From: Bacteroidota bacterium
GTDB taxonomy: Bacteria; Bacteroidota; Ignavibacteria; Ignavibacteriales; Ignavibacteriaceae
DNA: 64,000 nucleotides
Direction of reading: 5' to 3'
Assembly: GCA_021824145.1 (NCBI GenBank)
Contig: JAKALM010000003.1
Coordinates: 124,001-188,000 of the forward strand
This document shows positions 16,680 to 54,145 of this stretch, piece by piece. Position 1 is the stretch's first letter; the number at the start of each line of letters is the position of its first letter. Position numbers and translations under genes: made by a program. Below the pieces are notes generated by a model. It saw only the letters and a program-made list of their open reading frames with translations, did no database searches and was not told the DNA's origin.

Positions 16680-18566
16680 ATGGAAAGAGATGAAGGGGAA
16701 AAGATTATTGAATCCGGAATTCCAATTGCACCTTCGATGGAGCCGACACTTCAAACAGTTTATTTACCCGAAGATAAAAATATTTATAATTATCGTATAA
16801 TAATTATTTCACTTCTTGCAATTGGATTAGGAATAGCGGGCGGAATAGTTGCGCAAGTCCTTACTAAACTAATTGGACTTATAACTAATTTATGTTTTTA
16901 TGGAGTGTTTTCATTTAACTTTAATTCCCCAGCGCAAAATCATCTTGGATTGTGGGTGATATTGATTCCGATTGCCGGATCAATTTTAGTAGGACTTATG
17001 GCAAAGTATGGATCAACGGGAATAAGAGGACACGGAATTCCTGAAGCGATGGAACAAATATTAACTAATGAAAGCAGGATACAACCAAGATTAACATTTT
17101 TAAAACCAATTTCGGCAGCAATATCAATTGGAACAGGCGGACCATTCGGTGCAGAAGGCCCGATAATTGCAACTGGCGGTGCATTAGGTTCATTGATTGG
17201 GCAACTTTTGAAAACAAGTGCGGATGAAAGAAAAATTCTTTTAGCATCTGGCGCTGCGGCAGGAATGGCTGCAACTTTTGGAAGCCCAGTTGCTGCGATA
17301 TTACTAGCTGTTGAACTTTTATTATTTGAATTTAAGCCTCAATCGTTAATACCTGTTACCTTAGCAAGTGCAACGGCAACTGCATTAAGAATTTTTTTAG
17401 TAGGATCGACTCCAATCTTTGCTTTAAAGAATGTTACTGAACCCGGATCAATTGCATTAATAATTTATTTGTTATTGGGATTAATAATAGGAGTAAGCTC
17501 TGTATTTGTAACCAAATCTGTTTACTATGTTGAAGATATATTTGATAAACTTCCAATTCATTGGATGTGGTGGCCGGCGATTGGCGCAATAGCTGTGGGT
17601 GTTATAGGATATTTTTCACCACACACCATGGGAGTTGGATATGACAATATTGATAATATTTTGAACGGAAAAATTATCGGACAAACTTTAATAGTATTAT
17701 TTATTTTAAAATTTGTTTCATGGACAATTTCACTGGGAAGCGGAACCTCAGGCGGAACACTTGCACCGTTGTTTACAATCGGCGGCGGATTAGGCGCTGC
17801 CATTGGTTATATTGTTTTGAGCTTGTTTCCAAATTCAGGAGTTGATATAAGGATTGCAGCGCTAGTGGGAATGGCTGCAATGTTTGCAGGTTCTGCAAGG
17901 GCACTTTTAGCATCAGTTATTTTTGCATTTGAAACAACAATGCAGCCATATGGATTACTTCCGTTATTAGCAGGATGCAGCGCTGCTTATTTAGTATCCA
18001 GCTTAATGATGAAAAATACTATAATGACTGAGAAGATAGAACGAAGAGGAGTAAAAGTTTCCAATGAATACGAAGTTGATTTTCTAACTCAAATTTTAGT
18101 TAAAGATTACGCAACCACAAAAGTATATTCAATTAATTCTGATGATAAAATTTCCGAAGTAAGAGAGTGGCTCAATTCAGGAGGAGAAGGAACTTTGCAT
18201 TACGGATATCCAGTAATTGATAAAGATAAAAAAATTATTGGAATATTGACTCGCCGGGAAATTGAGAATGCAAAATCGCAAGCAGAAAGAAAAATAAGTG
18301 AAATAATAAAAGGTAATCTGGTAGTAATTTATGAGGACAGCACCTTACGAGAAGCTGCTGACATGATTGCATTTCATAAAATCTCTTTGCTGCCAGTTAT
18401 TGCGCAAAACGATAAAAGTAAATTATTGGGACTGATTACTCACGATGATATTCTGAAAGCAAGAAGGATTAATATAGAAAAGGAAACTTTATTCAAAAGG
18501 AATATCAGCTTTAATAATTTAAAATCGAGGAAGAGAAAGGGCAAAAATGAAATTGCCCAAACATAA
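16680..18566 (+). CDS. ClC-family chloride channel/antiporter with C-terminal CBS domains
   Basis: About 628 residues. The ClC core has the three anion-pathway motifs: GIRGHGIPEA, GTGGPFGAEGP with the gating glutamate near residue 160, and SGGTLAPLF. Roughly ten to eleven hydrophobic helices run from residue 40 to 440. Two CBS domains follow (about 465-590), which bind adenine nucleotides in relatives. The second ATG (16680) is preferred because AGGA ends 6 nt before it; an upstream ATG at 16674 has no room for a ribosome site. Transport of chloride against protons is likely but channel activity cannot be excluded. The small exported protein gene downstream may be co-transcribed. Confidence 0.92.
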   Translation: MERDEGEKIIESGIPIAPSMEPTLQTVYLPEDKNIYNYRIIIISLLAIGLGIAGGIVAQVLTKLIGLITNLCFYGVFSFNFNSPAQNHLGLWVILIPIAGSILVGLMAKYGSTGIRGHGIPEAMEQILTNESRIQPRLTFLKPISAAISIGTGGPFGAEGPIIATGGALGSLIGQLLKTSADERKILLASGAAAGMAATFGSPVAAILLAVELLLFEFKPQSLIPVTLASATATALRIFLVGSTPIFALKNVTEPGSIALIIYLLLGLIIGVSSVFVTKSVYYVEDIFDKLPIHWMWWPAIGAIAVGVIGYFSPHTMGVGYDNIDNILNGKIIGQTLIVLFILKFVSWTISLGSGTSGGTLAPLFTIGGGLGAAIGYIVLSLFPNSGVDIRIAALVGMAAMFAGSARALLASVIFAFETTMQPYGLLPLLAGCSAAYLVSSLMMKNTIMTEKIERRGVKVSNEYEVDFLTQILVKDYATTKVYSINSDDKISEVREWLNSGGEGTLHYGYPVIDKDKKIIGILTRREIENAKSQAERKISEIIKGNLVVIYEDSTLREAADMIAFHKISLLPVIAQNDKSKLLGLITHDDILKARRINIEKETLFKRNISFNNLKSRKRKGKNEIAQT

Positions 18567-45280: not shown

Positions 45281-45332
45281 ATTTAGATTTTAAATGAAAA
45301 ATTATAAAGAAAAATATAGCCCAACTTCATCA

Positions 45333-45380
45333 ATGTGCACCACAACAGGTACAACCCCTACAGGTATGCATGGAGGCTGA
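45333..45380 (+). CDS. thrL: thr operon leader peptide
   Basis: 15 codons reading MCTTTGTTPTGMHGG and TGA; six of eight residues at positions 3-10 are Thr. An in-frame ATG at 45294 would extend it to 28 residues, but that ATG lies only a few bases after the predicted transcription start. The stop codon falls inside the 5' arm of the antiterminator, so a ribosome that finishes the peptide blocks antitermination, and one stalled on Thr codons permits it. It precedes thrA by 108 nt. This is the design of the E. coli thr attenuator, with a different sequence. Confidence 0.8.
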   Translation: MCTTTGTTPTGMHGG

Positions 45381-45428
45381 AGCCAGGTTATATAAAAATT
45401 AACTAAGAATTTGAAAAACCGGCTTCAG
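45377..45428 (+). promoter_or_regulatory. Antiterminator of the thr attenuator
   Basis: CTGAAGCC-A-GGTT (45377-45389) pairs with AACCGGCTTCAG (45417-45428) over 12 bp with one bulged A. Its 3' arm is the 5' arm of the terminator, so the two are exclusive. Confidence 0.75.
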
Positions 45429-45447
45429 AAATGAGGCCGGTTTTTTT
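45417..45447 (+). terminator. Attenuator terminator before thrA
   Basis: AACCGGC / GCCGGTT stem (45417-45423 and 45436-45442) directly followed by a run of Ts, 41 nt before the thrA start. An intrinsic terminator inside an operon leader, right after a Thr-rich peptide, is diagnostic of attenuation. Confidence 0.85.
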
Positions 45448-45488: not shown

Positions 45489-47945
45489 ATGAAAATATTG
45501 AAATTCGGCGGTTCTTCAGTTGGCGATGCTGGTAGAATTAAAAATGTAATTGAAATTCTGAAGCAATCAATAAATGAAAATAAAAAAATTGCGGTTATAT
45601 TTTCTGCATTTCAAAAAGTTACTGATAACTTAATTAAAATGAGTCAACTGGCTGCTTCTGGAAACACAGAGTATATTGATTATTTTAAAAAACTTGAAGA
45701 AAGACATATAGAAACAGCACAGGAAATTCTTGCTGTTAAAACTCAAAGCGGTATCCTTGCGCAACTAAAATATACATTAAATGAACTTGAAGATGTTTTA
45801 CATGGTGTATTTTTAGTAAAGGAACTTTCCCCTAGAACTCAAGATTTTATTTTAAGTTTTGGCGAAAGGCTTTCTGCATTTATTATTGCTCATGCACTTA
45901 TCGATAGAAATATCGAAAGTGAATTTCTTGACTCAAGAAACCTTGTAAAAACTGACGAAGCTTTTGGCGGAGCTAAAGTTGATTTTGAAAGTACCTATAA
46001 TAATATCAAAGAATATTTTAAAGTACATAAAAAACTCCAAGTAATCACTGGTTTTATAGGTTCAACAAACGGAAATGAAACTACAACACTTGGCAGAGGC
46101 GGTTCTGATTATTCAGCATCAATTTTTGGTGCTGCTTTAGATGCTGATGAAATTGAAATTTGGACTGACGTTGACGGAGTACTAACCGCAGATCCCAAAA
46201 AAGTGAAAAAAGCTTTTCCACTAAAAGGGATGACTTATGAAGAGGCTATGGAACTTTCGCATTTTGGTGCTAAAGTAATTCATCCGCCAACAATGCATCC
46301 AGCGATGGAAAAGAAAATTCCAATAAGAATAAAAAATACTTTTAATCCAAGCTTTGAAGGAACTGTTATCAATGGATATTCAGATAAAAGTAATTTTTCT
46401 ATCAAAGGGATTTCTTCAATTGATGACATTGCGCTTTTAAGAATACAAGGCGGCGGTATGGTTGGTGTTGCTGGAATTGCGCAAAGAATTTTTTCTGCGC
46501 TTGCCAGCAAACAAATTAACATAATTTTAATTACTCAAGCTTCATCAGAGCATTCACTTTGCTTTGCTGTTCTTCCAAAATTTGCAGCGGTGGCAAAAAA
46601 AGCTATTCAACAGGAACTACATTATGAGATAAAAGAAAAATTGATTCTTGACCCTATAGTTGAAACTGATCTTTCTATTATTGCAGTTGTGGGAGAAAAT
46701 ATGCGAAGGACTCCAGGAATTGCTGGAAAAGTTTTTCAAGCTCTGGGTAAAAATGGAGTTAACATTATAGCAATTGCACAAGGTTCATCGGAGTTAAATA
46801 TTTCTGCAGTTATTTCAAGAGAAGATGAAGCAAAAGCATTAAATGCATTGCACGATGCATTTTTCTTATCAATTGCAAAAACTGTAAATTTATTTATTGT
46901 TGGAACCGGCTTAGTAGGTGGAACTCTATTGAAACAAATAGCTAATCAAACTGAATTTCTAGCTCGCGAATATCTCTTAAATGTAAAAATTATTGGCATG
47001 GCAAATAGCAGAAAAATGTTAATTGATTCAAACAGTATTGATCCATCGAAATGGGAAAATCGAATTAGCGAAGACGGCATAAAAACCAATTTAGATGTTT
47101 TAATTGAATATATGAAAAAGCTAAATCTACCTAACAGTATTTTTGTTGATTGTACGGCAAGCGATAAAGTTCCTTTGAGATATAAAGAAATCTTGGACTC
47201 TAGCATTTCGGTAGTTACACCAAACAAACGAGCAAATGCTTCCAGCTTTGATTATTATATTCAACTTAAGCAATCAGCAATTAAGCACAATGTTAGATTT
47301 TTGTATGAAACAAATGTTGGTGCCGGTTTGCCAATCATAAGCACTTTAAATGATTTAGTTTCCAGCGGTGACACAGTTATTAAAATTGAAGGAGTAATGT
47401 CTGGAACTTTGAGTTACATATTCAATTCTTTTAAAGATGGAAATACATTCAGTCAAATAGTAAAAGATGCAAAAGAAAAAGGCTATACCGAACCAGACCC
47501 AAGAGAAGATTTAAATGGAATGGATGTTGCCCGAAAGCTTTTAATACTTGCCAGAGAAACTGGATTATCATTGGAATTAAAAGATATAAAAGTTGAAAAC
47601 TTAGTTCCTGAAAAAGCAAGAAATACAAAAACTGTAGATGAATTTTTTGAAAAGCTAAAAGAGTTTGATAGTGAATTTGAACAAAAAAGAAAAAGTGCTG
47701 GAAATAAAGGTAATGTTTTACGCTATATTGCACTATTAGAAAATGGCAATGCAGAAATTTCCTTGCAGGAAGTAAACGCTAAACATCCATTTTATTCTCT
47801 ATCAGGAAGCGATAATATTTTCGCACTTACAACAAAACACTATCAAGACCGTCCGATAGTTGTTAAAGGTCCTGGAGCTGGTGCAGACGTAACCGCTGCT
47901 GGTGTATTTGCTGATGTAATAAGAATTTCAAATTATTTGAGTTAA
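45489..47945 (+). CDS. thrA: Bifunctional aspartate kinase / homoserine dehydrogenase
   Basis: 818 residues. N-terminal aspartokinase (MKILKFGGSSVGD at the start, TTLGRGGSDYSASIF, EIWTDVDGVLTADPK), two ACT domains in the middle (about 310-455) for threonine control, and C-terminal homoserine dehydrogenase (LFIVGTGLVGGTLL Rossmann motif, VVTPNKRANA, then YTEPDPREDLNGMDVARKL). It catalyses the first and third steps from aspartate to homoserine. It is the first gene of the operon and lies behind the Thr attenuator. Confidence 0.97.
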   Translation: MKILKFGGSSVGDAGRIKNVIEILKQSINENKKIAVIFSAFQKVTDNLIKMSQLAASGNTEYIDYFKKLEERHIETAQEILAVKTQSGILAQLKYTLNELEDVLHGVFLVKELSPRTQDFILSFGERLSAFIIAHALIDRNIESEFLDSRNLVKTDEAFGGAKVDFESTYNNIKEYFKVHKKLQVITGFIGSTNGNETTTLGRGGSDYSASIFGAALDADEIEIWTDVDGVLTADPKKVKKAFPLKGMTYEEAMELSHFGAKVIHPPTMHPAMEKKIPIRIKNTFNPSFEGTVINGYSDKSNFSIKGISSIDDIALLRIQGGGMVGVAGIAQRIFSALASKQINIILITQASSEHSLCFAVLPKFAAVAKKAIQQELHYEIKEKLILDPIVETDLSIIAVVGENMRRTPGIAGKVFQALGKNGVNIIAIAQGSSELNISAVISREDEAKALNALHDAFFLSIAKTVNLFIVGTGLVGGTLLKQIANQTEFLAREYLLNVKIIGMANSRKMLIDSNSIDPSKWENRISEDGIKTNLDVLIEYMKKLNLPNSIFVDCTASDKVPLRYKEILDSSISVVTPNKRANASSFDYYIQLKQSAIKHNVRFLYETNVGAGLPIISTLNDLVSSGDTVIKIEGVMSGTLSYIFNSFKDGNTFSQIVKDAKEKGYTEPDPREDLNGMDVARKLLILARETGLSLELKDIKVENLVPEKARNTKTVDEFFEKLKEFDSEFEQKRKSAGNKGNVLRYIALLENGNAEISLQEVNAKHPFYSLSGSDNIFALTTKHYQDRPIVVKGPGAGADVTAAGVFADVIRISNYLS

Positions 47946-52324: not shown

Positions 52325-52355
52325 TTGACAGATAATTTTATAAGAATTATTTTTG
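52325..52355 (+). promoter_or_regulatory. Promoter of the met operon
   Basis: TTGACA (52325-52330), 17 nt, TATTTTTG (52348-52355), a perfect TAnnTTTG. Predicted start near 52362. Same spacing as the thr promoter. Confidence 0.6.
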
Positions 52356-52407
52356 TACAAGATAAATGATAAATGAAAATCTAAATATCGCAATTAAAAT
52401 AGAGCTA

Positions 52408-52467
52408 ATGGCAATGTGTCTTTGCTGTATGATGATGTTTTCGTCATCAAAGAAGGACACAGTTTAA
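52408..52467 (+). CDS. Cys/Met-rich leader peptide of the met operon
   Basis: 19 codons: MAMCLCCMMMFSSSKKDTV and TAA. Five Met and three Cys occur in the first ten residues. An in-frame ATG at 52366 would add 14 residues but lies almost at the transcription start. The stop codon adjoins the 5' arm of an antiterminator and an intrinsic terminator follows, so stalling on Met or Cys codons should permit read-through. This comes before a SAM-I riboswitch, giving two controls in series. No protein function beyond control is suggested. Confidence 0.75.
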   Translation: MAMCLCCMMMFSSSKKDTV

Positions 52468-52502
52468 CTAAAAACTTATAAAAAATTAAAACTGAGCCCT
52501 TC
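52452..52502 (+). promoter_or_regulatory. Antiterminator of the Cys/Met leader
   Basis: GAAGG-ACA-CAGTTT (52452-52465) pairs with AAACTG-AGC-CCTTC (52489-52502): 11 bp around a 3x3 internal loop. It shares CCTTC with the terminator, so the two are exclusive, and its 5' arm is covered by a ribosome at the leader stop. Confidence 0.65.
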
Positions 52503-52529
52503 CGAAAATAAATCGAGAAGGGCTTTTTT
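52495..52529 (+). terminator. Attenuator terminator behind the Cys/Met leader
   Basis: AGCCCTTC / GAAGGGCT stem (52495-52502 and 52517-52524) followed by TTTTTT. It lies between the leader ORF and the SAM riboswitch. Confidence 0.85.
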
Positions 52530-52570
52530 GTTAGATAAAATATGACTTAAAAAAATAAAAATATTTGAAG

Positions 52571-52698
52571 CTCTTATCGAGAAAGGTTGAGGGAACAGGC
52601 CCGGCGAAACCTTAGCAACCGCTCCAATATTATTGGAGGACATGGTGCTACTTCCTGCCCAATGCTGATTTAATCAGCAAGTTAGGGAAAGATGAGAG
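52571..52698 (+). ncRNA. SAM-I riboswitch (S box)
   Basis: S-box landmarks in order: P1 arm CTCTTATC, then GAGAAAGGTTGAGGGAACAG, GGCCCGGCGAAACC, TTAGCAACC, GGTGCTA, TTCCTGCC, and the closing P1 arm GATGAGAG. P1 pairs over 8 bp (52571-52578 with 52691-52698). It binds S-adenosylmethionine and then favours the terminator that follows. It precedes metY, as expected for methionine synthesis. Confidence 0.95.
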
Positions 52699-52711
52699 AA
52701 GAAGTTTTGAT

Positions 52712-52748
52712 AACCTCTTCGAAAATCTTTCTGAAGAGGTTTTTTTTT
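52712..52748 (+). terminator. Terminator of the SAM riboswitch
   Basis: AACCTCTTC / GAAGAGGTT 9-bp stem (52712-52720 and 52733-52741), extended inward by GAAA / TTTC, followed by a run of Ts. It is the expression platform of the riboswitch, 60 nt before metY. Confidence 0.92.
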
Positions 52749-52750
52749 GA

Positions 52751-54145
<1,395 letters not shown>

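Follow-up and report, generated by a model that had tools for sequence, protein, structure and literature searches.

Layout of the metYX leader

The window, meaning the whole stretch of 64,000 nucleotides that was analysed, comes from contig C30 of genome G000 (3.48 Mb). It holds a leader of about 0.5 kb between a proC-like gene, so labelled from a reading of its translation, and metY. The features of this leader and of the two genes behind it are as follows.

52325..52355, + strand: promoter P1, TTGACA-N17-TATTTTTG, 13 of 13 consensus points
52366..52467, + strand: leader ORF of 33 codons, MINENLNIAIKIELMAMCLCCMMMFSSSKKDTV, delimited from the aligned leaders by its kept Cys/Met residues and by gaps in multiples of 3
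52383..52388, + strand: AAATAT, +18 in the leader ORF, conserved by position count in the leaders
52416..52437, + strand: region 1, 5' strand of helix 1:2, comprising most of the run of Cys/Met codons, from folding
52442..52465, + strand: region 2, 3' strand of helix 1:2 and also 5' strand of antiterminator 2:3, reaching into the stop codon
52489..52502, + strand: region 3, the 3' strand of antiterminator 2:3; overlaps the terminator's 5' strand
52494..52529, + strand: terminator T1 (3:4), GAGCCCTTCC...GAGAAGGGC with a U run, about -17 kcal/mol
52571..52698, + strand: SAM-I riboswitch aptamer (RF00162), 76.1 bits, E 4e-16
52698..52720, + strand: candidate antiterminator of the SAM-I platform, GAAGA.GUU / AAC.UCUUC, from folding
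52712..52748, + strand: terminator T2 of the SAM-I riboswitch with a U run, -12.9 kcal/mol (hairpin 52712-52741)
52808..54145, + strand: metY, O-acetylhomoserine sulfhydrylase, 445 aa, TIGR01326 at 692 bits (cut-off 495.1) and PF01053
54244..55413, + strand: metX, homoserine O-acetyltransferase, NF001209 at 440 bits (cut-off 331)

From its spacing, metX is probably co-transcribed with metY. The sequence-only reading of this DNA had placed a promoter before the leader, and P1 bears this out; its -7 box is of the Bacteroidota type, TAnnTTTG. The leader ORF starts at 52366, 10 nt past the -7 box, and ends at a TAA stop codon (52465-52467). Its Cys/Met codons run from 52408 to 52437. The peptide that the earlier reading had described, MAMCLCCMMM..., is present as the Cys/Met-rich MAMCLCCMMMFSSSKKDTV (52408-52467), but this is the downstream part of a conserved ORF that begins 14 codons upstream and has 33 codons, not 19.

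Folding of the free leader RNA gave helix 1:2 (52416-52437 with 52442-52460) together with terminator 3:4, with a minimum free energy of -43 kcal/mol and a z-score of -5.1; 0/200 shuffled sequences were as stable. Antiterminator 2:3 consists of a 5-bp part (GAAGG/CCTTC, 52452-52456 with 52498-52502) and a 6-bp part (CAGTTT/AAACTG, 52460-52465 with 52489-52494), and these 11 bp are exclusive with the terminator hairpin at 52494-52525, the U run of which extends to 52529. The earlier reading had proposed this 11-bp antiterminator and its intrinsic terminator, and both were recovered; it had missed the competing helix 1:2. The leader of G000 therefore has an ORF with regulatory codons, exclusive 2:3 and 3:4 pairings, and a helix 1:2 that competes with them. 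At the level of sequence and predicted folding, stage 1 has every part of a trp-type ribosome-mediated attenuator.

T1 folded at -17.1 kcal/mol and antiterminator 2:3 at -9.6 kcal/mol, so read-through would depend on the order of folding. A terminator that is thermodynamically stronger than the antiterminator is usual in trp-type attenuators. When the G000 leader was folded before region 4 is made, 2:3 had a probability of 0.65 without a ribosome and 0.67 with a stalled ribosome, and untranslated RNA is therefore not clearly "off"; the value for a ribosome masking the stop codon is zero by construction and is no test of 2:3.

The aptamer scored 76.1 bits against an Rfam cut-off of 44.4, and it is the sole Rfam match over cut-off in the window and the sole RF00162 match in G000. 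Its expression platform, read from folding only, comprises T2 and a competing putative antiterminator, which was folded without the 5' strand of the aptamer's own P1 and without the 3' half of T2. A full SAM-I aptamer with its own terminator before metY, as the earlier reading had called it, was thus confirmed. Two other readings of the leader were discarded: a tandem riboswitch, since the whole window holds a single match over cut-off and not two aptamers, and a T-box or other known leader family, since no Rfam match over cut-off besides SAM-I occurs in the window.

Conservation of the leader peptide and of the antiterminator register

RF00162 was matched in 28/59 genomes, G000 included, and 30 SAM-I loci were examined. 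A leader precedes the aptamer in 19 of them; the 11 loci without one stand before metY (6), before metH-like genes (3), before another PLP enzyme (L010), or are SAM-I/IV (L028, the same locus as L134). The peptides and hairpins of the 19 leader loci, G000 included, were aligned. The peptide consensus was MK....NI.......AMC.CCMMMC.SSRKD, and all five CCCTT/AAGGG terminator pairs were kept in 19/19 loci. RNAalifold run on the 19 rows found the terminator alone. Helix 1:2 was poorly aligned in the five most divergent rows, and the model and the pair counts were therefore based on the other 14. In these, helices 1:2 and 3:4 were paired in 89.1% of cells, against 42-53% when the partners were slid by 1-3 columns, and helix 1 was paired in 87.8% of cells. 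Covariation in helix 1:2 was slight, with two-sided changes at 2/23 pairs; both helices together gave 3 such pairs and 6 such cells, and in 500 shuffles 3 pairs were reached 40 times and 6 cells never. Gaps inside the ORF part of this alignment were 3 or 6 long without exception.

Constraint on the codons was examined in 27 leaders of the order (25 before metY, that before cysH of G008, and one of G007), aligned by peptide with no motif filter. The majority residue was kept in 77/100 cells of the four Cys columns and 95/128 cells of the five Met columns, and in 275/554 cells of the 23 other columns. Single-base codon differences in the Cys columns were synonymous in 187 cases and not in 113, where degeneracy predicts 12% synonymous; in the other columns the counts were 828 and 1198, with 20% expected. 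All of these are pairwise counts among related sequences and not independent events. The Met columns gave 4 synonymous and 156 other differences, ATG having no synonym. An earlier count of 145 synonymous against 10 non-synonymous differences, from 17 leaders chosen by the motif AMC.[CS]C[MT]M, is biased to conservation because its rows were picked by motif; the unfiltered test is weaker and falls on the same side. The order of Cys and Met differs between lineages (MMCMM, MCMRM, CMCMCMM).

Pairing at the stop codon was assessed in 62 leaders, 54 from the order and 8 from family f41 or named Balneolales, with G027, which lacks the U run, and the second leader of G290 excluded. We asked for the longest complement of the terminator 5' arm in the ORF, of at least 5 bp, to lie within -20..+5 of the stop codon. 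It did so in 54/62 leaders, G000 among them, whereas shuffling of codons within the ORF gave 12.0 (sd 2.05). The eight misses are G038, G019, G047, G306, G318, G337b, G296b, and G231b. The spacing from stop codon to terminator was 20-33 nt in 58/62 leaders. G040 and G042 carry an unrelated terminator, CCGGCTTC..., and a GAAGC arm that matches it at the stop codon; both partners have changed there and the predicted pairing is kept. The 62 leaders were partly chosen for their Cys/Met codons, so their richness in these is no test; the register test is independent of that choice, although sequences within one genus are not independent observations. The sequence-only reading had staked itself on conservation of the Cys/Met codons and of the antiterminator pairing in relatives, and these data show that both are kept.

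The same 62 ORFs share another regularity. Counted from the start codon, AAATA is found at exactly +18 in 48/62 leader ORFs and in 7/11 second leaders without a promoter, and in 1/39 of the window ORFs of at least 150 aa. Position 18 is a wobble base, and it is A in 55/62.

Arrangement of leaders and riboswitches before metY and other genes

In the order, metY was found in 71/146 sampled genomes, with 75 matches. Nine matches were unclassified, comprising four paralogs at 44-45% and five fragments or contig ends (G308, G010:C483, G002, G309, G287); the start of metY in G287 is apparently on its contig C102, where SAM-I is present and a leader is not. With G025 and another contig of G010 added, 68 metY regions were classed by reading upstream scans together with the SAM-I positions. 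A leader followed by SAM-I was seen in 25/68, never in reversed order; these include G027, where the U run of the first terminator has been lost. SAM-I stood alone in 22/68, two Met leaders stood in tandem without SAM-I in 12/68, a single Met leader was present in 4/68, and SAM-I/IV followed by a SAM-II-like element in another 4/68. The remaining region, that of G029, has a leader and a second terminator, with no match in an Rfam SAM search. Leaders without SAM-I thus precede 16/68 metY genes, or 17 counting G029. An ORF with at least 4 Cys/Met codons before a terminator was present in 42/68 real regions (G027 by hand), against 5.6% of shuffled leader regions with one terminator each, which serves as a rough yardstick; in G014 an ORF with four Cys/Met codons lies inside the SAM-II-like element and was not counted as a leader.

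In the metY loci with tandem Met/Cys leaders (L075, L078, L079, L082, L110, L111, L114, L118, L120, L125, L133, L145), the second leader stands in the place of the riboswitch. At L121, L122, L124, and L134, SAM-I/IV and then the SAM-II-like element lie upstream of metY, with a terminator after each; SAM-I/IV scored 54-59 bits, over cut-off, and SAM-II or SAM_alpha 23-33 bits, under cut-off.

A search of the phylum found metY in 224/296 genomes, and 60 upstream regions were sampled outside the order. By Rfam scan, SAM-I lay somewhere upstream in 47/60, in some cases 650-750 nt before metY. A leader with SAM-I was found in 6/60, all among the 9 regions from family f41. Among the five Balneolales-type records (L171, L173, L174, L178, L179), two (L174 and L178) have a leader with SAM-I, and family f41 is therefore probably Balneolaceae. 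Long Cys/Met leaders without SAM-I occurred in 2/60 regions, L225 (on the same contig as L206) and L277; these are unusually long, e.g. ...VMMPMCMMMCCCCAKSTCENVLHKL. Tandem Cys/Met leaders with terminators, MKNKITMMCCMMGNENYVKA and MSVKRINKMCCCKNTMCMTMRIRIRYYPD, precede metY of Crocinitomix algicola (L198), where an Rfam scan gave no match over cut-off.

The pair also occurs before other genes. SAM-I loci away from metY were read with G314, G339, and G344 left out. A leader with SAM-I precedes cysH in G008 (L030); a Cys/Met-type PLP enzyme in G307 (L127) that is below every NCBIfam cut-off; and, in G007 (L002), a gene out of view. In G307, G326, and G325 (L126, L128, L130), the pair also stands before genes for small membrane proteins of the DUF2061 type, called by a Pfam run on the G307 protein (L126) and by likeness in the other two; this placement suggests that such genes belong to sulfur metabolism. 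At 11 metH-like SAM-I loci, so called by likeness of the protein start, and at L138, no leader was present in the 330 nt scanned.

A search of 245 genomes for leaders of this build gave a match at E <=0.01 in 30 of them. We read 42 of the 46 rows and three weaker matches in G000; the four other rows are the known metY leaders of G000, G057, G038, and G047. Several matches, G000:C27, C36, G198, and G177 among them, look like chance terminators in or after genes. At L066 (G000:C4:104310-104462), a Cys-run leader, MKTEKRNITLKLTVTCCCHSSFKLCWKDTI, with a terminator precedes cysK (TIGR01139 over cut-off). Trp-run (WWWW) leaders precede trpE-like genes at L067 (G000:C26:214564-214728) and at loci in relatives, and tandem Ile-run leaders, MKNTIINIIIIIIVIIG and MYKTNSHIIISIIIIVIIGIIDG, precede an ilvE-like, branched-chain aminotransferase-like gene at L083 (G049:C121:29254-29504). 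The window itself contains a second attenuator (45294-45442, + strand) with a Thr leader, MKNYKEKYSPTSSMCTTTGTTPTGMHGG, and a terminator, AACCGGCTTC...GAGGCCGGTT with a T run, before thrA, a bifunctional aspartokinase/homoserine dehydrogenase starting at 45489. The composition of these leaders follows the pathway downstream (Cys, Trp, Ile, Thr), and therefore fits the prediction of codon sensing. Elsewhere in the window, 16690-16887 (+ strand) holds a weak candidate ORF and terminator with a 7-bp arm complement (MKGKRLLNPEFQLHLRWSRHFKQFIYPKIKIFIIIV) that may be due to chance.

The P1 consensus was reached with at least 11 of 13 points in 25/26 leader and SAM-I loci of the order and in 1/8 loci outside it, where this consensus does not capture the promoter; overall, 26/34 loci scored at least 11. 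In the stretch from T1 to the aptamer, a promoter-like score of at least 11 occurred in 0/34 loci (mean 7.8, against 8.0 in shuffles; best 10/13). In the Met-Met tandems, likewise, a promoter was found on 12/12 first leaders and 0/11 second leaders (scores <=9). With no second promoter recognised between the modules, both stages are most likely on one transcript.

Two proposed stages in series and comparison with known systems

We consider that metYX is controlled by a two-stage transcription-termination leader, in which an attenuator is followed in series by a SAM-I riboswitch, and give this reading a probability of about 85%. As far as sequence can carry it, the evidence is one promoter, an ORF, three exclusive helices in register with the stop codon, an aptamer, two terminators, and a conserved order of these parts. 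RNA polymerase would start at P1, and a ribosome would load on the almost leaderless ORF. With charged Cys-tRNA and Met-tRNA plentiful, the ribosome would reach the stop codon and cover region 2, so that terminator 3:4 would form and transcription would stop near 52529. A ribosome stalled in the Cys/Met run (52408-52437) would instead cover region 1, allowing 2:3 to pair and the polymerase to continue. At the second stage, the SAM-bound aptamer would let T2 form, and without SAM the antiterminator would allow metY to be transcribed. Full expression of metY would thus need both low Cys/Met charging and low SAM, with the two read-throughs multiplying. Translation of the ORF, stalling, termination at T1, SAM binding, multiplication of the signals, and the tRNA that would dominate are what we infer from this architecture.

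The comparison with relatives supports ribosome-sensed and SAM-sensed control in series, as the sequence-only reading had proposed; the AND gate that it added is a deduction. Two leaky terminators in series would multiply their read-through and would therefore not give strict AND logic. The gate might be described as an AND of two shortages or, equally, a NOR of two signals of plenty. Cys codons may stand beside Met codons because metY spends sulfide, which is also needed for cysteine synthesis, and the charges of both tRNAs would then report sulfur supply. Counting against the two-stage reading are the 8/62 leaders that fail the 2:3 test and the 22/68 metY genes that have SAM-I without a leader. 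So do the lost U run of G027, the leader of G029 with no SAM-I behind it, the poor fit of P1 to the consensus outside the order, the leaderless metH-like SAM-I loci, the slight covariation in helix 1:2, and the folding of the G000 leader, in which T1 is stronger than 2:3 and untranslated RNA is not clearly "off".

It is quite improbable that control is parallel, with a second promoter past T1 driving a SAM-I/metY RNA and the signals adding. In some members of the focal genus a word like TGAC(A/T)TA does recur, about 20-40 nt upstream of the aptamer, and a TTGACA-type promoter lies just upstream of the aptamer in 9/12 leaderless SAM-I loci (the metH-like loci and L138). However, the distance from the TGAC word to any -7 box is not fixed, and candidate second promoters score like shuffled spacers, with 0/34 reaching the 11 points that 26/34 first promoters reach. 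The constraint on the ORF also weighs on the idea that the SAM-I riboswitch alone matters and the leader is vestigial or damps expression constitutively. SAM-I alone suffices for 22/68 metY genes and the first terminator of G027 has decayed, but the Cys/Met residues, the frame, and the antiterminator register are under constraint, and 16/68 metY genes (17 with G029) have leaders without SAM-I, which makes this idea hardly credible.

A Cys/Met-rich nascent chain might itself be the sensor, binding a metal or reacting with a thiol or sulfide and so arresting or releasing the ribosome. A Cys/Met-rich run could bind metal, and both AMCxCCMMMC and the N-terminal MK....NI are conserved. Against this, the order of Cys and Met varies among lineages, and sibling leaders of like build carry Trp, Ile, Thr, or Cys alone, matching the gene downstream. 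We regard a sensor peptide as very unlikely, and a metal-binding or arrest peptide was set aside as first choice since in the sibling leaders the amino acid matches the pathway.

Beyond metYX, the two-stage reading might extend to a modular serial attenuation of sulfur genes that is general in Ignavibacteriales and Balneolales, in which Cys/Met leaders, second Met leaders, SAM-I, SAM-I/IV, and SAM-II would be interchangeable stages placed after a single promoter and ahead of metY and other sulfur genes, and in which AAATA at +18 would mark an undescribed step of ribosome-polymerase coupling or initiation. Taken jointly, these propositions are tentative, and we think them rather doubtful. The arrangement raises the questions of why SAM sensing should be supplemented by a gate for tRNA charge, and whether the cell distinguishes a lack of sulfur (Cys) from a lack of methyl donor (SAM). 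Relatives with SAM-I only, leaders only, or tandem leaders before the same gene offer natural controls.

Each of the cited papers is represented here by part of its text, and what is said of it holds for that part. Several known leaders resemble the first stage. uORFC-8-2, a cysteine attenuator of the trp/his type reported only before cysS of Rhodobacterales, shares the regulatory codons in the first stem, the intrinsic terminator, and the presumed read-through on Cys stalling, but it stands alone, whereas the present leader combines Cys with Met, lies before metY or cysH, and is followed by a riboswitch (PMC8632094). Cys-run leader peptides are described for the cys operons of Mycobacterium and Propionibacterium and for cbs of Bifidobacterium; these likewise place runs of Cys codons in short ORFs ahead of sulfur genes, but in the text represented they have no conserved terminator hairpins, Met run, or riboswitch (PMC1262725). 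The metL leader of metNIQ in Streptomyces lividans also encodes a leaderless Met/Cys peptide (...CMCRRMCAF) and is a proposed attenuator, although in that account it has no typical Rho-independent terminator and no riboswitch in series (PMC8079986). No account of trp-type attenuators in the present bacterial group was found in open-access literature listings; the leaders described here point to such attenuators in this group for Cys/Met, Cys, Trp, Ile, and Thr.

The second stage scores as an ordinary member of the SAM-I (S box, RF00162) family and has the terminator of one. Unlike in the usual SAM-I leader, its terminator follows an earlier one that appears to sense translation. Leaders that join two signals are known. 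The leader of Salmonella mgtCBR contains two translated ORFs for the signals ATP and Pro-tRNA and is called a singular example; unlike here, it is described with no Cys/Met, no SAM aptamer, and additive effects (PMC3641672). Tandem SAM and B12 riboswitches precede metE of Bacillus clausii, a methionine leader which, like the present one, has two independent switches and two expected intrinsic terminators (PMC9481103; PMC3641672), but both of its modules are aptamers, and the terms leader peptide, attenuat, and uORF are absent from the tandem-riboswitch review (PMC9481103). That review counts two cases of SAM-I/IV followed by SAM-II. A T-box with SAM riboswitches in one leader is mentioned, in that passage with no leader peptide (PMC12452182). 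A SAM-I riboswitch of Xanthomonas also binds uncharged initiator tRNA, so that, as here, SAM and methionine-tRNA charging feed one met leader; it does so as one riboswitch, mainly translational, by direct tRNA binding, and its abstract has no leader peptide (PMC7270179).

In the open-access literature, with subscription papers mostly outside its scope, we found no description of a SAM riboswitch placed in series with a leader-peptide attenuator. Each half is already known, and their pairing in series is apparently unreported. The metYX leader would thus put a ribosome-read and a metabolite-read RNA control, both of them textbook types, in series on one promoter.
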